Virus record (IMG/VR): IMGVR_UViG_3300043426_000069
Coordinates: 1 to 20,185 of that record
From: a virus
Strand: one strand, 5' to 3'
DNA: 20,185 nucleotides
The position numbers and the translations under genes are program-made. Under the pieces are notes generated by a model. The model was not told the origin of the DNA. It saw only the letters and a list, made by a program, of their open reading frames with translations, and searched no databases. Below, piece by piece: positions 4,973 to 19,807 of the stretch (its first letter is position 1; every line of letters starts with the position of its first letter).

Positions 4973-5013
4973 AATTTAGAGTGTCCTTTTTGAGCAGAGT
5001 GAGTTCTTTTGAT

Positions 5014-5023
5014 TGTATTTAAT
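5014..5023 (-). promoter_or_regulatory. Late-promoter-like motif ATTAAATACA
   Basis: The minus-strand context is GCACATTAAATACAATC, 41 nt before the ATG at 4972. The spacing is longer than for most other copies. The motif lies in the 270-nt divergent region between the minus-strand spike gene and the plus-strand small-gene cassette. Confidence 0.45.
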
Positions 5024-5172
5024 GTGCGAGGTCAAAAAAGAAAATGAGTTTGAGATTTGGCCAAAATGATCTAATTACTTGTATGAATAATAAAAATAAA
5101 AGAGTGAGTTGTATTTTATCAATTTGCAAGTGTTAAAAAGCGAAAATATTAAATTAAAAGTGTAAAATCTAT

Positions 5173-5201
5173 TTGTGTTTTTAGCGTTTAGAATATATAT
5201 T
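5173..5201 (+). promoter_or_regulatory. Sigma70-like promoter for the plus-strand cassette
   Basis: TTGTGT (5173-5178) and TATATT (5196-5201) are separated by 17 bp in a strongly AT-rich stretch, 42 nt before the ATG at 5243. This is the geometry of a host-type sigma70 promoter. It does not contain the TTAAATA late motif seen on the other strand, so the cassette is probably transcribed on a different schedule. A second possible pair (TTGCAA near 5123 with TATTAA near 5146) exists. AT-richness makes both calls tentative. Confidence 0.45.
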
Positions 5202-5242
5202 AAGTAGAAGAGAATTTTAACACACTAACGAAAGGGGATAAA

Positions 5243-5560
5243 ATGACTACTGAACAATACCTTGAACAACTACGAGCAAACGGTGTGACAGATGAAAAGA
5301 TTACAGATCTTAGAAAAAAATTTGTAGATTTTGACCTCGAAAGCGCCAAACGCAAAAAAGAATATGATGCAAACCAAGAACATGAGAGAAAGGAAAAAGA
5401 CGCATTATTCTTTGTTTGGATTGGTATTGGTTTTTTGTGTCTAATAACTGCACTCTTTCCAATTGTAGGTTGTATTATGTTTGTTATAACATTTATTGGC
5501 ATTGTTATATATCTAGTGAAACATTATATCCGATTCAAACAAGCTAAAAGTGAGGGATAA
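5243..5560 (+). CDS. Small membrane protein with two transmembrane helices
   Basis: 105 residues, family not recognised. Residues 1-53 are hydrophilic and charged (helical, with KRKKEYDANQEHERKEKD just before the membrane). Two hydrophobic segments follow at about 54-73 and 75-92, joined by a very short turn (FPIVGC) that suggests a helical hairpin, and a basic tail closes the protein (KHYIRFKQAK). Charge placement favours both ends in the cytoplasm. SD AAAGGGG (5231-5237) precedes ATG at 5243. It is the first gene of a plus-strand cassette opposite in direction to all virion genes here. Possible roles are holin-like, superinfection exclusion or another membrane-acting accessory function; none is proven. 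Its start context GGGATAAAATG is repeated exactly at the next gene. Confidence 0.75.
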   Translation: MTTEQYLEQLRANGVTDEKITDLRKKFVDFDLESAKRKKEYDANQEHERKEKDALFFVWIGIGFLCLITALFPIVGCIMFVITFIGIVIYLVKHYIRFKQAKSEG

Positions 5561-5561
5561 A

Positions 5562-5846
5562 ATGTTTTCAAAAATTGTTGTTGTGGGTTTGGTAGCAGCA
5601 TCTCTAGGATTCTCAATGACAAAACAAAGATTACTGAACCTAAGGAGAGAATTTCAGAGCGCACTCAGTATTGACACTACTAGAAAATTATGTACAGATA
5701 GACAATTGACTTATCTTTTACACCTTAATAGATATACACAAACATATACGAAGGAAATAGATAACCTTTTTACAAAATGTCTTCCGGAAAGCCATAAAGT
5801 GTTAGCTAAGACTTTTAAGGAACTTGGATGGCGTAAACATGACTAA
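5562..5846 (+). CDS. Small protein with N-terminal hydrophobic segment, unknown
   Basis: 94 residues, not recognised. It begins MFSKIVVVGLVAASLGFSMTKQRL: a Lys, about 14 hydrophobic residues, then a basic helical region, so it is either a signal anchor or a secreted protein. There is no lipobox Cys, so it does not look like an outer-membrane spanin. The rest is charged and probably helical, with Cys at about 44 and 74. The frame also opens at a GTG (5550), but ATG at 5562 is preferred because GAGGGA sits 5-6 nt upstream and gives the same GGGATAAAATG context as the preceding gene. The stop of that gene (TAA 5558-5560) is one base before this start, and its own 3' end overlaps the next small gene, so the genes look translationally coupled. 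Confidence 0.65.
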   Translation: MFSKIVVVGLVAASLGFSMTKQRLLNLRREFQSALSIDTTRKLCTDRQLTYLLHLNRYTQTYTKEIDNLFTKCLPESHKVLAKTFKELGWRKHD

Positions 5847-5919
5847 TCTCGAACTTGCACTATCCGCTGTAATTCTTCTTCTTTGTTCTGGAATCTTGAT
5901 AAGGAGGCTGTGGAAATGA
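5839..5919 (+). CDS. 26-residue single-span membrane peptide
   Basis: The frame ATG 5839 to TGA 5917-5919 encodes MTNLELALSAVILLLCSGIL followed by IRRLWK: a short polar start, a hydrophobic span of about 15-17 residues, and a basic tail. That is the layout of a single-pass membrane microprotein. Its ATG overlaps the end of the 5562 gene (stop TAA 5844-5846) and its TGA overlaps the ATG of the next gene (ATGA at 5916-5919), so it fits exactly between two genes with coupled starts. No strong SD is visible for it, which suggests translation by coupling. Phage microproteins of this shape include lysis regulators, membrane toxins and exclusion peptides, but the function here is unknown. The overlap pattern is the main evidence that it is real. 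Confidence 0.5.
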   Translation: MTNLELALSAVILLLCSGILIRRLWK

Positions 5920-6083
5920 CGTTTGGTGAGTCTACAATGTTCGGTAATAGGTTGAGGTTTAAGCAGCAAGACCTTCAACCGCACATACAATCCCAACATG
6001 AAGACCGAATCAGTAAAGACAAGTTCCTCAATCAGTTCTTCCCTCCAGCTTTATCAGTATGGGATTTATTACCAACAATCTAA
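5916..6083 (+). CDS. Small hypothetical protein, 55 residues
   Basis: MTFGESTMFGNRLRFKQQDL, later FLNQFFPPALSVWDLLPTI; not recognised. It is soluble with no membrane span, basic in the middle and hydrophobic at the C-terminus. The frame extends upstream to a TTG at 5883, but ATG at 5916 is chosen because the strongest SD in the cassette, AAGGAGG (5901-5907), lies 8 nt before it. Its start overlaps the stop of the 26-residue peptide gene (ATGA). It is the last gene of the plus-strand cassette, and a hairpin terminator follows 8 nt after the stop. Confidence 0.55.
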   Translation: MTFGESTMFGNRLRFKQQDLQPHIQSQHEDRISKDKFLNQFFPPALSVWDLLPTI

Positions 6084-6090
6084 AAAATAA

Positions 6091-6120
6091 AAGGTCGCTA
6101 GATTAATTTCCGGCGACCTT
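6091..6120. terminator. Bidirectional terminator between converging operons
   Basis: AAGGTCGC (6091-6098) and GCGACCTT (6113-6120) form an 8-bp perfect stem with a 14-nt loop. On the minus strand the stem is followed by TTTTATTTTTTA, a good U-tract that ends the ejection-protein operon 33 nt after its last stop. On the plus strand it is followed by TCTTCT and lies 8 nt after the last cassette gene. Convergent transcription units meet here. Confidence 0.8.
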
Positions 6121-6152
6121 TCTTCTGTTATAATAAAAGAGTATGAGATCTA

Positions 6153-11085: not shown

Positions 11086-11095
11086 TATATTTAAC
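11086..11095 (-). promoter_or_regulatory. Late-promoter-like motif GTTAAATATA
   Basis: The minus-strand context is GTCAGTTAAATATAATT, 23 nt before the ATG at 11062. The TAA in the motif is also the stop codon of the 11091-11462 gene, so the element is packed into the gene junction. It would drive the ejection-protein operon. Confidence 0.5.
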
Positions 11096-13017: not shown

Positions 13018-13523
13018 TTGGAATATCTCCTAATTTGTGATTCACTCATTTTTTTTCTTGTGTCTTCAGTAAACAGTTGTAAAGCACGTTTTTCTTTAAT
13101 CTTACTTTTTGTAGATTCTGAAAGTGTTTTACCTTTCTGTACTTCACTTAATTTCTTACAATGCTCTTCTGATCTTTTGATTCGTTTAGTTCCTTTATTG
13201 GCAGCTGACATTATTTTCTTAGTCTCTTCAGAATGTTTATAACCAAAACCAGTTCGTCCACCCTCATTCATATTATATCCATTTATCCCAAAAGACTGAT
13301 ACTGTTTTATATAATATTTTTCCCAATAATCAAAACATATTTCTGGACATTTCAAAATTATCTCAAACATAAAACTATTAATGCCATATAATTGTATTGC
13401 TTTATGAATTATTTGGCATGTTGCTCTTTTATGATATTTCCAACGAGACATAATATTTTTGGAACAACCGATATAGACCTTATCATTGATTTTATTCGTG
13501 ATTTTATAAATTCCAGAAATCAT
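13014..13523 (-). CDS. Free-standing GIY-YIG homing endonuclease with NUMOD3 repeats
   Basis: 169 residues. The GIY-YIG nuclease domain covers residues 1-90: GIY at 4-6, YIG at 17-19, the conserved Arg in SRWKYHKR (R27) and the catalytic Glu in WEKYYIKQY (E68), followed by GINGYNMNEGG. Residues 91-168 contain four NUMOD3-like DNA-binding units, for example KHSEETKKIMSAANKG (96-111), KRSEEHCKKLSEVQKG (116-131) and FTEDTRKKMSESQ (151-163). All key residues are present, so it should be active. It lies between the gp4- and gp10-like genes. Its ATG overlaps the gp4 stop (TAATG) and its TGA overlaps the gp10 ATG, so it is spliced cleanly into a coupled operon. It is a mobile element that likely nicks or cuts a neighbouring gene in related phages lacking it. 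It is AT-rich and Lys/Ser-rich compared with its neighbours. Confidence 0.92.
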   Translation of the reverse strand: MISGIYKITNKINDKVYIGCSKNIMSRWKYHKRATCQIIHKAIQLYGINSFMFEIILKCPEICFDYWEKYYIKQYQSFGINGYNMNEGGRTGFGYKHSEETKKIMSAANKGTKRIKRSEEHCKKLSEVQKGKTLSESTKSKIKEKRALQLFTEDTRKKMSESQIRRYSK

Positions 13524-14254
13524 TATTGTCCACTCCAGAAGTTACGAGATCCCATTGAATTGAAATCATTCTTTAAACGCTGGATATTATTAAGTGAATT
13601 TCTCTGCTTGATGTGTTTTAAAGCCGAATTCATCAACATTATCAATCCCTCTGGTGCATTTTGGCCGAAGATTGGTGCGAGATGTGTGGCTAGTGTGTAT
13701 ATTAAAGCTTCAACATATTCTGGAGGTAAAACTACTGCTTGTGAGATGTTTGTATACTGTGGGAGATATGCTTTACCTACAACTCTAACACCATAAGACG
13801 CTGGAATTGCTGGATAGAACCATAACTCATCAAATGGCATACCTTCTCTGAAATAACAAGCTGAAGGTATCGAAACAACATTCTTCAGTGGTATTTTAGT
13901 ATATTCCGAGTATGTTTTAATAGCTACTGGAAATGTCAAAGTACCCATTATAATATCAACTTGGTCAATAGATGCTGGTCTTTCGTCAATATCACCAACA
14001 GTAGGAGTAGGAAATTCACCATCAACAGCCATACCCATATAGATTACAGAAGTTGGATTAGTTGGATACACGATTTGGTCATACGATTTGAAGTTCATGT
14101 ACGAGTTTGACCATTTTCTGAGTATGTTATTCATTTGCATCAGAGCAGCTTGAGACACAGCAGCTTCAATACTTTCTCCAAATGAAACGGCACCAACATT
14201 TAGAAGTGCTTGCTGAATAATCTCAAAAACTGAATAATACTTATTACCTATCAT
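13523..14254 (-). CDS. Head completion protein, P22 gp4-like tail accessory factor
   Basis: 243 residues; P22 gp4 is 166. Family features are the helical N-terminus (VFEIIQQALLNVGAV, AALMQMNNILRKWSN), followed by YPTNP, IDERPASI, and the sequence FDELWFYPAIPASYGVRVVG running into PPEYVEALIYTLATHLAP and a C-terminal helix with HIKQRN. This pattern is shared by the gp4/gp6-type ring proteins that bind beneath the portal after packaging and create the platform for gp10. The gene follows the coat terminator and a promoter-like motif. SD GGAG (about 14260-14263) precedes ATG 14252-14254. The TAA stop overlaps the start of the homing endonuclease. Confidence 0.82.
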   Translation of the reverse strand: MIGNKYYSVFEIIQQALLNVGAVSFGESIEAAVSQAALMQMNNILRKWSNSYMNFKSYDQIVYPTNPTSVIYMGMAVDGEFPTPTVGDIDERPASIDQVDIIMGTLTFPVAIKTYSEYTKIPLKNVVSIPSACYFREGMPFDELWFYPAIPASYGVRVVGKAYLPQYTNISQAVVLPPEYVEALIYTLATHLAPIFGQNAPEGLIMLMNSALKHIKQRNSLNNIQRLKNDFNSMGSRNFWSGQ

Positions 14255-14281: not shown

Positions 14282-14291
14282 TATATTTAAC
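14282..14291 (-). promoter_or_regulatory. Late-promoter-like motif GTTAAATATA
   Basis: The minus-strand context is GTTGGTTAAATATAAGC, 27 nt before the ATG at 14254 and about 16 nt after the coat-gene terminator hairpin. Its position between a clear terminator and the next start is the best single argument that this motif family promotes transcription. Confidence 0.6.
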
Positions 14292-14307: not shown

Positions 14308-14337
14308 AAAAAGGACTCCACAGTTAAGCAGAGTCCT
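14308..14337 (-). terminator. Rho-independent terminator after coat gene
   Basis: On the minus strand AGGACTC (14337-14331) pairs with GAGTCCT (14318-14312) over a 12-nt loop, followed by TTTTT (14312-14308). It lies 27 nt beyond the coat stop codon and limits read-through from the most strongly expressed gene. Confidence 0.85.
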
Positions 14338-14364
14338 CTTATTCTCAATTATATAAAACTAGAC

Positions 14365-15843
14365 TTACGAACGGATTCTCACAATACCATCTGGGCGAAG
14401 GAGTTTCACGCCGATGAGCAAGTCAAGACGGATAGCAACACCAACAGAACCAGTAGCGCCAGGAGCAACACCCATCGAGTCAAATGTCATGGAAGTTCTG
14501 ATACCAAAGCCAGTTTCCGGATCACGGTCGTAGCTGATATTAGCACCCATTCCAGCATAAGAAGGAAGCTCAGGGGAAGCAATCACAATGGACTTATCGT
14601 GGAAGATTACCGATTCTTTGAAAGTGTCTCCGCCAGTGTGATTAGCCTTAGTACCGAACAATGCAACCTTATCACCAGCAACCATCTGACGGCTGATATT
14701 TTTGTAATCACCAGCAAAGATTGGAGCCGGGGAAACGATAAGCTGAGCAGTTGCGGCGGTAAGAGTGACAGACCCAGCAACAGTAGCAATACCAGTAACA
14801 CCAACGACCGTGAACTGCTGACGATTGCTCTGAAGCTTGTAGTTGAGCGGATTGACTGCTACAACGTCACCAGTTTCAGGATCAACAGAAGATGCATAGG
14901 AAGTAGCCATCTTATTGGTAGGAAGTGCGGTGCCAACAGTAAACATATCACCAATATTGATAGTCTGACCAGAAGTTAGACCAGATACGGAGATAGTTCC
15001 AGTTTCAGCCCAACCAGTAGCGAGTTGACCGGCAGAAGTGGAAAGAGCTACTGCAGAAGTCCAAGCGGTACCATTTGTGTGGACGGCGAGGTTAGGACTG
15101 GAGAAGAACTTAACACCGAATGCTTCAACATACTTGCCTTCATCGACACTGTCAGCGGAAGCCTTATAGTTCGTAAAGATTGTGGCCTGCTGAGAGAGCA
15201 TCTGTCCCTCTGCCTTCGGAGTAAGAACACCAATACGATCTTCAAACGGGATACCAGCGTCAGTTAAGATCTGGTTAGCAAGAGTGATATCAGAAGCCAA
15301 GAGCGAATACTTAGGAACAAGCTGACCATTTACAACAGAGTCATTACCAGAACCGATGATACACCAGTTAGGACCAGTAAGAGTAAGACCAACAGCAGAT
15401 CCACCACCCAAACCAGGATTTCCACCGAGTTCAGACGATACTGTGATGTTGGTTCCTGCATTGGAGATAGCATCAGCGATAATGGTATCAACCTGGTTCA
15501 CGATCGAGCGGAGCCAGTTAGCAGCGTAGCGTTTCTTGAAGTCTTCGATACGGAATGCAAAGTCGGCATCCTGGAAGAAAGGAGTGTACTTGATAGGAGA
15601 GGTCAATGCGAGAATGACCTGGGTATCCGTAGTCTTCTGTGCATTGTAAGCCCAAGTTCCATCATTTACAGCCTGGATCTGAACCGGTCTGCGAACTGAA
15701 AGAGAGGTACCAATTTTATCAGTCTGACCAAATCTCTTAGAATAGGACCAGTCAGCGTGCTTGGAGATAGCGGGCATGTTATCATAACGGTAGATGAGTT
15801 CCTTCGTTATGATGTTAGAGTTGAGTAGAGCGTTAGTTGCCAT
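14365..15843 (-). CDS. Major capsid protein, P22 coat family
   Basis: 492 residues (P22 coat 430). The N-terminal region has LNSNIITKELIYRYDNMPAI and GTSLSVRRPV. The core has FRIEDFKKRYAANWLRSIVN, a helix pattern typical of P22-like coats, and GIPFEDRIGVLTP. Residues about 275-395 form a beta-rich segment (GQTINIGDMFTVG, YKLQSNRQQFTVVG) corresponding to the inserted I-domain. The C-terminus DLLIGVKLLRPDGIVRI matches the family end. It forms the T-number shell on the scaffold. Start ATG at 15841-15843 follows SD AAAAGGAT. The gene has its own 225-nt leader and terminator. Three sampled 60-base lines are 45-53% G+C, while two sampled lines of neighbouring late genes are 40%, and GAG, GCG, ATC and ACC codons are common, fitting codon selection for very high expression. 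Confidence 0.92.
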   Translation of the reverse strand: MATNALLNSNIITKELIYRYDNMPAISKHADWSYSKRFGQTDKIGTSLSVRRPVQIQAVNDGTWAYNAQKTTDTQVILALTSPIKYTPFFQDADFAFRIEDFKKRYAANWLRSIVNQVDTIIADAISNAGTNITVSSELGGNPGLGGGSAVGLTLTGPNWCIIGSGNDSVVNGQLVPKYSLLASDITLANQILTDAGIPFEDRIGVLTPKAEGQMLSQQATIFTNYKASADSVDEGKYVEAFGVKFFSSPNLAVHTNGTAWTSAVALSTSAGQLATGWAETGTISVSGLTSGQTINIGDMFTVGTALPTNKMATSYASSVDPETGDVVAVNPLNYKLQSNRQQFTVVGVTGIATVAGSVTLTAATAQLIVSPAPIFAGDYKNISRQMVAGDKVALFGTKANHTGGDTFKESVIFHDKSIVIASPELPSYAGMGANISYDRDPETGFGIRTSMTFDSMGVAPGATGSVGVAIRLDLLIGVKLLRPDGIVRIRS

Positions 15844-15897
15844 TGTTAATCCTTTTGAATGTGTTTGGCTATTTTATTTCTCAAGTTTTTATCGGTC

Positions 15898-15951
15898 TCA
15901 GGAAGTTCAGTTTAAGGTTATTTTCTATCTCCTGAACTCCCCAAAACCTTA
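15898..15951 (-). promoter_or_regulatory. Mutually exclusive stems (possible pseudoknot) in coat mRNA leader
   Basis: Three complementary pairs interleave: TAAGGTT (15951-15945) with AACCTTA (15919-15913); AGTTCAG (15938-15932) with CTGAACT (15910-15904); TCAGGA (15935-15930) with TCCTGA (15903-15898). The first two have the a-b-a'-b' order of a pseudoknot, and the last two compete for the same bases. The region lies 55-108 nt before the coat ATG. A role in translation control or transcript stability is inferred. Confidence 0.4.
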
Positions 15952-15995
15952 GTAATGAAAAACGAGGTAGATAACTTTAGATATTCAATTAACCC

Positions 15996-16042
15996 TGGAA
16001 TACTCAGATGTTAGTTATTTAACAGTGTTTCTGAGTATTCCA
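15996..16042 (-). other. 13-bp perfect hairpin between scaffold and coat genes
   Basis: TGGAATACTCAGA (15996-16008) and TCTGAGTATTCCA (16030-16042) are perfect inverted repeats around a 21-nt loop that itself holds a smaller TGTTA/TAACA repeat. Neither strand has a U-tract after the stem, so it is not a typical intrinsic terminator. It could be an RNase III-type processing site or an mRNA-stabilising 5' structure. The loop contains the GTTAAATA motif. Confidence 0.6.
16014..16023 (-). promoter_or_regulatory. Motif GTTAAATAAC in the hairpin loop upstream of coat
   Basis: The minus-strand context CACTGTTAAATAACTAAC carries the TTAAATA core seen at other late gene starts, but it is 170 nt upstream of the coat ATG and inside the loop of the 13-bp hairpin. 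If used, it would give a leader long enough to include the interleaved stems. A weaker look-alike, ATAAAATA (15870-15877), lies at the usual distance from the ATG. Confidence 0.35.
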
Positions 16043-16068
16043 AAGCATTTTATAAGTGTTAGTTTATA

Positions 16069-17130
16069 TTATCTACGACTTCTGTTTCGGTCTTCCTGTG
16101 CTCGTAGTTTCTTATACTCTTCAATGGTTGTAGCTTTATCTGATGCTTGTTTTGATCCACCAGAATTACCACCTACTGTCCTTGGAACAACTTTACTCTT
16201 AGCTGGTTTAGCATTGGCGTTATATTCTACATCCTGTTCACTCTCAGATTCCAATTCAATGTATGCTGAGATCTTACCAATTTTCTTTAGGATGGAGATA
16301 TTGTCAGCTTTATTGAATATATCTGCAACCAAGTTCTTATCTTTAATCACTCGGTATATCAGTTCTGGAGCGTTATCATCGAATACTAAAGCCTTTTGAA
16401 CTGAATGATCAATAGCTTCAATCCCCCCCTTTCTAATAATCTCTTTCTCAAACCAACCAATAGCGGACTTGATTTCTGGGTTCTTTTTACTAGCATCGTC
16501 AATCTTGGAAATAAATGCTGCTGATTGCTTCTCATTTTCACGAACAGCTTCAGCATGGGATATCTCTCTCTGGAATGATTCTCTAGTCTTATGGATCAAT
16601 CTCTCCTCTCTAATCTCTTCCATTCTAGCTTTCCATTTCTCTTGGTCAGCTTTCAATGTGTTCCAATCATCATAGTCAGTTGATTTTGGTTCTGGTCCTA
16701 GCTCTTTAATTAGTTTTTCAAAAGGATCTAATACAACTTCAGCTTCTTCTTTAGGTAGAGTCTTTTGAATAACTCTCTCATATTCTGCCAACTGACTCTT
16801 ATATCTTTCAACCTCAGCTTCTTTTTCCTTCTTCTGAGCCTTGAGTTTTAGAAGTTTATGGAGTGGAACCTTTTTATCAGAATCAGTTACAATCACATCT
16901 TCATCTTCTTCAGTTTCATCTGTTTCTGACTTTTTCTCTTCTTCCTCTTTCCATGGTGTATATTCTTCAGCTTCAGTACCATCTTCAGCATCAGTATTAG
17001 TTTTTTCCTTTGATGTGCTGATAACTTCTGTATTGCTATTAGATTCAGACTTTCTTTGTTCCTTATACTCAGCTACAGACATTTCTACTGATGGTGCACT
17101 TTCAATAATATCTAAATTCTGTTCTTCCAT
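16069..17130 (-). CDS. Capsid scaffolding protein
   Basis: 353 residues (P22 gp8 is 303). Very acidic N-terminal third (DAEDGTEAEEYTPWKEEEEK, DETEEDEDVIVTDSD), long charged helices with coiled-coil character (residues about 90-240), and a short basic C-terminus TTIEEYKKLRAQEDRNRSRR. In P22-type scaffolds the basic C-terminal helix-turn-helix binds coat protein, and this end fits that role. The gene lies directly before the coat gene, as in P22. It would be present in procapsids and leave before packaging. SVAEYKEQR near the N-terminus (18-26) resembles TIEEYKKLR at the C-terminus (335-343). Start ATG at 17128-17130, two bases after the upstream stop, with SD GGAGA. Confidence 0.82.
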   Translation of the reverse strand: MEEQNLDIIESAPSVEMSVAEYKEQRKSESNSNTEVISTSKEKTNTDAEDGTEAEEYTPWKEEEEKKSETDETEEDEDVIVTDSDKKVPLHKLLKLKAQKKEKEAEVERYKSQLAEYERVIQKTLPKEEAEVVLDPFEKLIKELGPEPKSTDYDDWNTLKADQEKWKARMEEIREERLIHKTRESFQREISHAEAVRENEKQSAAFISKIDDASKKNPEIKSAIGWFEKEIIRKGGIEAIDHSVQKALVFDDNAPELIYRVIKDKNLVADIFNKADNISILKKIGKISAYIELESESEQDVEYNANAKPAKSKVVPRTVGGNSGGSKQASDKATTIEEYKKLRAQEDRNRSRR

Positions 17131-17609: not shown

Positions 17610-17633
17610 TGTTAATCCTATTGTGTCTTATTG

Positions 17634-17665
17634 AAAAGGTAAGCCGATGTTTGTCAAGCTTACCT
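17634..17665 (-). terminator. Hairpin terminator after portal gene
   Basis: On the minus strand AGGTAAGC (17665-17658) pairs with GCTTACCT (17644-17637) over a 13-nt loop, followed by TTTTC. It lies 40 nt beyond the portal stop. A TATAAATA string (17675-17668) sits immediately before the stem. Confidence 0.7.
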
Positions 17666-17704
17666 CCTATTTATATTACTGAATTTTAAGTTACTTTATC
17701 CATT

Positions 17705-19774
17705 TCATTTCATCAGATTTGTAACTATTGTTTTTTCCATGTCGTTCTTATGCTTTTGGTCAATTGAAGCAGATGATAAAGTATGGTCATGTTGTTTGAT
17801 TGCTACTTCATGTGCCAACTTTTGCTTCTCTTTCTCCATATCATTTTCAGACTTCAATTTATCATTTCTGGCATCTAATTCTGATTTAACAGCGGACTTC
17901 TCTTCTTCCTGTTGTGTTCTGTAAATATCTTCCTCGCGTTTAAACTTGGTCTTCATTACTTCCATTTCTGTCTGATGTTGTAGTTTCATGCTTTCAATTT
18001 GTAGACGGAGTTGGTTAGCATCATTAGCGGCTTGTAATTGGCTTTGAAGTTGATTGATAGCCGCTTGCATTTGCTCCGCTTGTGCTTGGCTTTGTGCAAT
18101 TTGATTCTGAAGAGCTTGATTGTTAGCCATAAGCGAATCAGTATCATTATTAGTTGGATTAGTAGCTGCCAATATTTTAGGATCCATTCCAGCTCTGATA
18201 CGTCTTGCAATTGAATCTGCGTTATCAAAGTCCATGTTCCCTATAATTAGATCAGCTGCAGTTGCTCCTATGATTGGCATTTGCTGTGAAAGAGTAGTCA
18301 GAACATCCAACATTTCACTGCGTTTATCTGTGTATGAAGGACCAATTGAAACCATACATTTATATTCTGCAGACTTAGTTAGATCATGGTACTCAATCTT
18401 CCCATTTTCTTGATATTCTGTATTAACTGGAACTTGACTTACTTGACCATCGACTCCTAAAATCTGCATTATGTCTTCAGTATCATAGTAATATCTGATC
18501 AAGTCTAAAAGAATCTCACCAGTATAACGAATGCCTAAATTGATATTGTTGATAAAGTTATAGGTCTGTAGATTCTTCTGAGATAGTTGTAGTGATATTG
18601 CTTTTCCAGATTGTGTCGTTGGAATATCAGTTAAAGGATTAGGAATACCCATACCAAATTGAATATCTTCTGATGCTTCCTTACTTCCTTCAATATATTC
18701 AGTTGGTATAGTTCCAGGAGTTATGGTATCAGGTTTAGCTCCATTTTTTCCATCATAAGGCAGGTAAGGGAAAGCGTCTATATTGATTGAGTTCCACATT
18801 CTCTGCAATTCTGGTGTGCTGACTGTATTATAATCAACCATGTATTTTGTCTTGGTCGTCTTCTGTATAGCATCAACAATTTCAGATTTTGTATAGTTAA
18901 GTATTTTCTGTTGATCAATAACGTCGGAGATAAGACTTTTAATTTTACGATCATCACCAACAGATATGTCTTCACCAACTACAAATATGATTGGAATCAA
19001 AGTGCCAGGATAATCAGTATTTTTATATAGTATCTTGGAACCATTGAAAATATATTGTTCCACTTTCCCATCAACTCTTCTCCAAAACTCTGATATCTGA
19101 ACAAACTCCTTATCACCCCAACCAGCTTCTGAATTAATTGGATCTTCATTGTCCTTCTCGTCTGGAAACTCTCTCTCAAACTGGTCCCTAGAGATTCTAT
19201 TTGTTATAAAGCAGTATTCCATGTCAGAGAAGTTTGGATTCTTAGCACCTGGATCAATTACAACACTCAAAACGTCTCTGATTCTCTCAATTACTAGTTC
19301 CACGTTATTCTTGTCATAGTCGCAAATTCTAGGTATAACTCTCCAAGCACCCATTCCACCAGCACAAACCGACATTAATGCGTTGGAATAAGCTTCATTG
19401 GCATCTGATGTGTACTGAATATATTTGATAATGCCGTCGAGAACTTCAGATGTATTCTTATTGGCATTTGAACCTCTTGGATGGATCTTAATTGACGGTG
19501 GATTGGATTTGAAATTATTAACCACATACCGAATATTAGCTGCTAAACGATTATTAGTTGTTATAGACCTTCCAGTAGCAGCACGTTTTGACCTTTCATC
19601 TTCAGTCCATTGCTCATTAAGTAGGGAAAATCTGATATTATACTCGTAGGTAGTTCTAATATCTTCCCACACCTTGACTGCTTTGTTATAGGTGTCCATG
19701 ATGTCTTTGTGGAACTTAACATCGGTATCTTCAGCTTCAGCTTTTGGTTTAGTGGTATCAAATAAGTTTTCCAT
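17705..19774 (-). CDS. Portal protein, P22 gp1-like
   Basis: 689 residues (P22 portal 725). The portal forms the 12-subunit ring at one head vertex through which DNA is packaged and ejected. Family features are the N-terminal region with YNIRFSLLNEQWTEDERSKR and GRSITTNNRLAANIRYVVNN, the NPPSIKIHPRG motif, then SNALMSVCAGGMGAWRV. A middle part follows with DPGAKNPNFSDMEYCF and GKAISLQLSQKNLQTYNFIN. Residues about 549-680 form a continuous Gln/Glu/Lys-rich helical region (LQNQIAQSQAQAEQMQAAIN and onward), equivalent to the long alpha-helical barrel of P22 portals that reaches into the head. ATG at 19772-19774 is preceded by SD AAAGGAAA. A promoter-like motif at 19798-19807 overlaps the terminase stop. 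Terminator at 17634-17665. Confidence 0.93.
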   Translation of the reverse strand: MENLFDTTKPKAEAEDTDVKFHKDIMDTYNKAVKVWEDIRTTYEYNIRFSLLNEQWTEDERSKRAATGRSITTNNRLAANIRYVVNNFKSNPPSIKIHPRGSNANKNTSEVLDGIIKYIQYTSDANEAYSNALMSVCAGGMGAWRVIPRICDYDKNNVELVIERIRDVLSVVIDPGAKNPNFSDMEYCFITNRISRDQFEREFPDEKDNEDPINSEAGWGDKEFVQISEFWRRVDGKVEQYIFNGSKILYKNTDYPGTLIPIIFVVGEDISVGDDRKIKSLISDVIDQQKILNYTKSEIVDAIQKTTKTKYMVDYNTVSTPELQRMWNSINIDAFPYLPYDGKNGAKPDTITPGTIPTEYIEGSKEASEDIQFGMGIPNPLTDIPTTQSGKAISLQLSQKNLQTYNFINNINLGIRYTGEILLDLIRYYYDTEDIMQILGVDGQVSQVPVNTEYQENGKIEYHDLTKSAEYKCMVSIGPSYTDKRSEMLDVLTTLSQQMPIIGATAADLIIGNMDFDNADSIARRIRAGMDPKILAATNPTNNDTDSLMANNQALQNQIAQSQAQAEQMQAAINQLQSQLQAANDANQLRLQIESMKLQHQTEMEVMKTKFKREEDIYRTQQEEEKSAVKSELDARNDKLKSENDMEKEKQKLAHEVAIKQHDHTLSSASIDQKHKNDMEKTIVTNLMK

Positions 19775-19797: not shown

Positions 19798-19807
19798 TGT
19801 ATTTAAT
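19798..19807 (-). promoter_or_regulatory. Late-promoter-like motif ATTAAATACA
   Basis: The minus-strand context is CATAATTAAATACAAATG, 23 nt before the portal ATG. The TAA of the motif is the terminase stop codon, the same arrangement as at 11091-11095. Confidence 0.5.

Follow-up and report, generated by a model that had tools for sequence, protein, structure and literature searches.

A conserved RNA hairpin and a probable late promoter before the coat gene in a P22-like phage lineage

In a virus record of 20,185 bases (called the window below, and analyzed over its whole length), whose virion genes lie on the minus strand, the gene for the major coat protein is separated from a scaffold-like open reading frame (ORF) by 225 nt (15844-16068). 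An earlier note on this DNA had described the gap as a single structured leader of the coat gene and had offered processing, stability or autoregulation as its role. We confirmed the gap on the minus strand between the two ORFs, but found that the spacer probably combines a late promoter with a predicted 5′ untranslated region (UTR) of about 166 nt, so that 16068 is probably not where coat transcription begins. The promoter-like motif and the terminators flanking the coat unit had been overlooked, and the motif changes what the leader is. With moderate confidence, we favor the reading that coat forms a separate transcription unit whose structured leader promotes expression or protects the mRNA. 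The features on which we draw are listed in Table 1.

That the capsid genes are of P22 type, as had been proposed, was borne out by Pfam for both coat (P22_CoatProtein) and portal (P22_portal), while the scaffold-like ORF matched neither Pfam nor PHROG families. A close coat gene was found on two contigs, being 80% identical in L001 and 75% in L002; L005 and L020 denote the same contig as L002, and L003 that of L001. All comparative statements concern three sequences (the window, L001 and L002), whose contigs, 4.9-20.2 kb long, are all fragments.

Searches by coat, portal and head-closure protein, together with DNA-pattern scans of viral contigs, placed the leader on these two contigs only. 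Upon querying 50,697 phage records with the coat protein (tblastn), we obtained no match at 1e-5; a search of genome contigs gave no match, and blastn of the leaders against phages returned chance-level pieces only. The pattern scans were not watertight: the L002 contig, though it fits the pattern, was missed by two of them and found by a third in a piece of sequence that stops right behind the match, a case suggesting that hits spanning the edge of a stored piece were lost. Eleven of the 12 pattern-scan loci, all but L003, were judged unrelated from their gene context. Portals of named phages were less than 30% identical to that of the window among the matches listed (the best 30 of 98 records), and three further contigs (L021-L023) were remote, with a coat gene found only in L022. 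This P22-like lineage is known here only from environmental contigs. Among five more distant phages, the gap before coat measures 6 nt (L017), 20 nt (L018), 32 nt (L022) and 41 nt (phiEco32), and in the fifth, L019, 24 nt precede the first of the two pieces annotated as coat; within this sampling, the long coat leader appears to be a feature of this small group. The P22-type coat gene of L019 (MW202674.1, 10022-11537) is annotated as two pieces about 220 nt apart, both of which match the coat profile, and may contain an intron, an insertion or a frameshift.

Table 1. Features of the coat region and of related gene borders in the window (all on the minus strand)
Feature	Position	Evidence or remark
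Portal gene (P22_portal)	17705-19774	Pfam 6.5e-113; PHROGs concur
Scaffold-like gene, upstream of coat	16069..17130	Named from position and size alone
Perfect inverted repeat, 13 bp, straddling promoter	15996..16042	Shortened to 8 bp in L001, missing from L002
GTTAAATAA, probable phage late promoter of coat, single -10-like element	16015..16023	Motif distribution, logo
Predicted transcription start (A)	16009	A in 15/16 aligned sites
Predicted coat mRNA 5′ UTR, 166 nt	15844..16009	Predicted start to coat ATG; L001 has 165 nt, L002 157 nt
SL1, small stem-loop (+2 to +16), 4 bp, 7-nt loop	15994..16008	Same columns in three sequences
Invariant block CUACCUC	15964..15970	Invariant in three-sequence alignment
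Outer helix P1, 5′ strand	15956..15963	UUUCA:UGAGA probability 0.77-0.97 in all three
17-bp helix P2, 5′ arm	15932..15948	51/51 cells paired, 3 double changes, pair probability 0.93-1.00
Invariant loop segment AGAUAGAAA in 21-nt P2 loop	15922..15930	Invariant run
17-bp helix P2, 3′ arm	15894..15910	Hand alignment, pair probabilities, shuffles
Outer helix P1, 3′ strand	15876..15883	Pair probabilities, RNAalifold
Shine-Dalgarno region of coat, AAAAGGA	15850..15856	Sequence
Major coat protein gene	14365..15843	PF11651 P22_CoatProtein 3.8e-16 (Pfam); phrog_283 3.3e-27 (PHROG)
Intrinsic terminator after coat	14309..14340	Counterparts in L020 and L001
Next late-promoter motif, past coat terminator	14283..14291	Counterparts at L020 8393 and L001 1757
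RTTAAATA late-promoter-like motif upstream of seven gene borders	1675-1684, 2851-2860, 5014-5023, 11086-11095, 14282-14291, 16015-16023, 19798-19807	Also in L020 and L001

Conserved and unconserved structure in the spacer

Using a hand alignment of the three leaders, verified against the source sequences and adopted since MAFFT misaligned the 5′ arm and leaning towards the helix though both arms are contiguous and ungapped, we found a 17-bp helix (P2, including G-U pairs) in all three sequences, in which six pairs vary and three of these vary on both sides in a compensatory manner. Among 1000 column shuffles, the best helix had 8 bp and none reached 9 bp, and 2 of the 1000 gave a helix with three double changes. 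The claim of a structured leader therefore stands insofar as selected RNA structure lies before coat, with no broken pair in the three sequences. The RNAalifold consensus on this alignment contained P2, an outer 4-bp helix CUCR:UGAG (P1) and a 4-bp stem-loop at +2 (SL1). Single-sequence folds prefer a shifted P1 register, UUUCA:UGAGA, which three sequences cannot separate from CUCR:UGAG. SL1 showed two double changes and 11 of 12 cells paired in a hand count on the alignment, but was weak once coat codons were included, with a pair probability of 0.00 in the window, where other pairings win, and of 0-0.52 in the relatives.

The P2 loop is A-rich and measures 21-23 nt, and the extended hairpin occupies about 90 nt of the leader. 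Invariant runs of at least six columns were GTTAAATAA, CTACCTC, AGATAGAAA and CTGAACTTC; the exact GGAGATAGAAA of the P2 loop is unique within the window, which holds no further copies of the loop beyond chance. CUACCUC is complementary to GAGAUAG at six of seven positions, and the loop and the CUACCUC flank possibly touch each other. From CTACCTC to just past P2, the leader core is 69-79% identical, compared to 51-57% at fourfold-degenerate coat sites, an imperfect neutral yardstick where the coat gene may have codon bias. The whole spacer (225 nt with the start codon) folded more stably than dinucleotide shuffles (z = -7.2, 0/200), as did its counterparts in L001 (z = -5.4) and L002 (z = -4.9), while the predicted 5′ UTR by itself was less extreme (z = -2.4 in the window, -4.3 in L001 and -3.2 in L002). 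Rfam gave no matches reaching the gathering score in the window or L003, the leader showing only sub-threshold noise, and no conserved upstream ORF was seen by eye; the ATG ORFs of L001 and L002 lack a counterpart in the window. Listings of the open-licence literature, a scope outside which most subscription journals fall, yielded no structured RNA before a P22-like major capsid gene, and nothing relevant on scaffold autoregulation in P22.

The earlier note had described three incompatible pairings within 15898-15951. Of Watson-Crick pairings 6 or 7 bp long, this stretch indeed contains just three (15932-15938/15904-15910, 15945-15951/15913-15919 and 15930-15935/15898-15903), mutually exclusive as a set and partly in pseudoknot order, but two of them occur in the window only. 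AGUUCAG/CUGAACU alone is kept, as the core of the 17-bp helix with its G-U pairs, and in L001 and L002 the other two shrink to 4-5 bp. Loss of complementarity in relatives was what the note itself had named as refuting these pairs, and a pseudoknotted switch finds no backing here.

The hairpin might also be bound by coat, scaffold or a host protein and act as an autoregulatory operator for coat translation. Such an operator would be in keeping with the invariant AGAUAGAAA in the large loop, with the invariant CUACCUC, and with a basic C-terminal tail on the scaffold-like protein in both sequenced versions. A basic scaffold tail is, however, expected for coat binding as well, the alternative pairings are found in the window only, and the ribosome site is not shut off by any conserved pairing. 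The mean unpaired probability of the Shine-Dalgarno region was 0.65 in the window, 0.87 in L001 and 0.88 in L002, and that of the coat ATG was 0.35, 0.65 and 0.35, respectively, while the RNAalifold consensus of the three sequences contained no conserved helix hiding the ribosome-binding site. With the Shine-Dalgarno region mostly unpaired in all three, the proposal of autoregulation by scaffold or coat loses ground and we consider an operator unlikely; a stability role for the leader is possible.

The 13-bp perfect hairpin singled out earlier is present in the window (15996-16008/16030-16042), where 2 of 2000 shuffles gave a repeat as good, but is not conserved: L001 has 8 bp (22/2000 shuffles as good) and L002/L020 has 4 bp (2000/2000). 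It is real sequence and not a shared feature, and elsewhere in the window copies of its half-sites are no more frequent than expected by chance. Nucleotides +2 to +14 of the predicted coat transcript make up exactly its 3′ arm, and GTTAAATAA lies in its loop. Because the 5′ arm precedes the promoter, the hairpin would form only in read-through RNA or act as a DNA palindrome; in a read-through transcript it would extend to a 17-bp hairpin with G-U pairs, in the window only. The window has no intrinsic terminator before the coat promoter (-0.8 kcal/mol), and read-through from the scaffold gene is therefore likely there. Upstream of the coat promoter, L002 and L001, but not the window, carry a hairpin with a T-run (12 bp and 10 bp, respectively), as judged by folding and sequence reading, the terminator scanner (loops ≤8) having listed neither.

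These observations bear on whether the leader is an RNA processing site, at which an endonuclease such as RNase III would cut read-through scaffold-coat RNA into separate stable mRNAs. The 17-bp helices, P2 in the leader and the window-only one across the promoter, would accord with processing, as would the missing terminator before coat in the window. Yet cleavage at P2 would fall inside the coat leader itself, and the promoter-spanning hairpin is absent from L002, while both L001 and L002 have a terminator-like hairpin at that place, and we regard processing as quite improbable.

A probable late-promoter motif and the ends of the proposed coat unit

We found GTTAAATAA to be common to all three coat leaders and to belong to a motif, [AG]TTAAATA[ACT], that occurs in 18 coding-strand copies and one antisense copy across the window, L020 and L001 (44,908 bases). 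Sixteen of the 18 sense copies are intergenic and upstream of a start codon, and two lie inside genes. Fully non-coding segments hold 12 copies, compared to 0.79 expected and a maximum of 5 in 2000 first-order Markov simulations, the sites being partly non-independent in that several lie at one gene border shared by two or three of the phages. The one-mismatch form TTAAATATA was not enriched across the window or L020 as a whole, and the signal lies in the exact matches and their position. Upon aligning the 16 intergenic sites, we observed an A in 15 of them 7 nt beyond the end of TTAAATA and no second element upstream, with columns -32 to -1 all at or below 0.43 bits, so that no -35 element was apparent.

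From this pattern we infer that [AG]TTAAATA[ACT] is a phage late promoter, with coat transcription starting at 16009. A single -10-region element upstream of late genes with no -35 is the arrangement of single-element late promoters, and the motif appears to share it. With leader length taken as the motif-to-start-codon distance minus 14, the three of the 16 intergenic TTAAATA sites that precede coat, one per phage, predict leaders of 157-166 nt in all three phages, compared to 0-37 nt at the 13 remaining ones, including an L020 site that falls on an ATG. The short leaders reported earlier for other genes agree with the 19-37 nt predicted at the window's other six sites. If read as a promoter, the motif would let late transcription units of this lineage be read directly from sequence.

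RTTAAATA might instead be a recurrent mRNA element, that is, a leader or translation signal, with coat co-transcribed with scaffold across a 225-nt intercistronic region. AT motifs are common in AT-rich genomes, and the lack of enrichment of the one-mismatch form in the window and L020 would fit such an element, but the exact motif is specific in strand and position, stands directly after terminators and keeps a fixed spacing to the near-invariant A. These properties make an mRNA element very unlikely.

Returning to a separate coat unit, a terminator followed by the motif stands after coat in all three phages. The idea that the late promoter gives rise to the conserved RNA as a small RNA acting in trans, in packaging or assembly for instance, could draw on its compact conserved fold, its invariant unpaired segments and its own adjoining promoter-like motif, but is extremely unlikely given that the sequence and the terminator scan show no terminator between hairpin and coat and that the element is kept directly before coat in 3/3 phages and was found nowhere else in the scans.

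Other elements were also noticed. An exact T4 late consensus, TATAAATA, stands in place of RTTAAATA in the gap separating the portal gene from its neighboring ORF in both the window (17610-17704, minus strand) and L020 (5091-5117), and in the window it is followed by a hairpin of 8 bp that ends in a TTTT tail (AGGTAAGC/GCTTACCT). In L001, GUUAAAUA beside a hairpin with loop pairing resembles the pistol ribozyme motif; a self-cleaving ribozyme was rejected, as Rfam gave no match in the window or L003 and this motif is found again in front of many genes.

A possible role for the leader and its nearest parallels

On the reading that we favor, the spacer would be a control region in which transcription starts from the RTTAAATA late promoter without a -35 element and ends, at least potentially, at the intrinsic terminator just past coat. 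The mRNA would carry about 160 nt of untranslated RNA at its front, about 90 nt of it as one extended hairpin, with the ribosome-binding site downstream left open. The hairpin, perhaps with the 5′-terminal stem-loop, would most likely shield the 5′ part of the mRNA from decay and/or keep the ribosome site clear, and the outcome would be coat output in excess of that of its neighbors. A 5′ hairpin can stabilize an mRNA and impede RppH, according to a review (PMC3997798). A passive protective hairpin alone is less fitting, because the invariant loop and flank suggest recognition by something. It is conceivable, though doubtful, that the coat-mRNA hairpin is a new phage RNA element whose AGAUAGAAA loop and CUACCUC flank are recognized by coat, scaffold or a host factor, setting the coat:scaffold ratio post-transcriptionally. 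Separate promoter, terminator and conserved RNA hairpin would together provide a testable layout for over-production of the shell protein in a P22-like lineage.

Several known systems resemble parts of this arrangement. In T7, capsid gene 10 is served by a promoter of its own and has a structured leader, much shorter than the one here, as well as a terminator behind it; the coat unit shares this plan, but its sequence and promoter are unrelated and it has the conserved 17-bp hairpin. The middle and late promoters served by the phage sigma factor (gp36) of phiEco32 have the consensus tAATGTAtA with a start 6-8 bp downstream (PMC8948821). As there, we see a single AT-rich element without a -35 upstream of late genes, and genes in the order portal, small ORF, scaffold, coat; the predicted start A, 7 nt downstream, would lie at about the distance seen there. 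The element sequence differs and the scaffold-coat gap of phiEco32 is the short one given above. The T4-type late promoter, TATAAATA (PMC2984593), is likewise a single element ending in AAATA, but most sites here carry RTTAAATA instead. Stabilizing 5′ UTRs of the ompA type (PMC3997798) are also structured and leave the ribosome site mostly open; unlike in these, the 5′-terminal stem-loop here is weak and the strong helix starts about 60 nt inside.

We also made a few observations on neighboring genes. The stretch at 13523-14254 has a weak match to the SU10_adaptor family (3.3e-05, under the curated cut-off), which hints at kinship with phiEco32-like virion genes. The three phages share a 7-bp stem near the start of the coat ORF (15781-15813, minus strand; nt 31-63), in which one pair changes on both sides (A-U to G-C); of eight such stems in this ORF it alone has a double change. 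Furthermore, a long stretch without minus-strand genes (4973-6152) lies before a tail-region gene and holds small opposite-strand ORFs at 5243-5560 and 5550-5846; with a counterpart stretch without plus-strand genes in L020 (15929-16579), it may be an accessory or lysis module in the opposite orientation.
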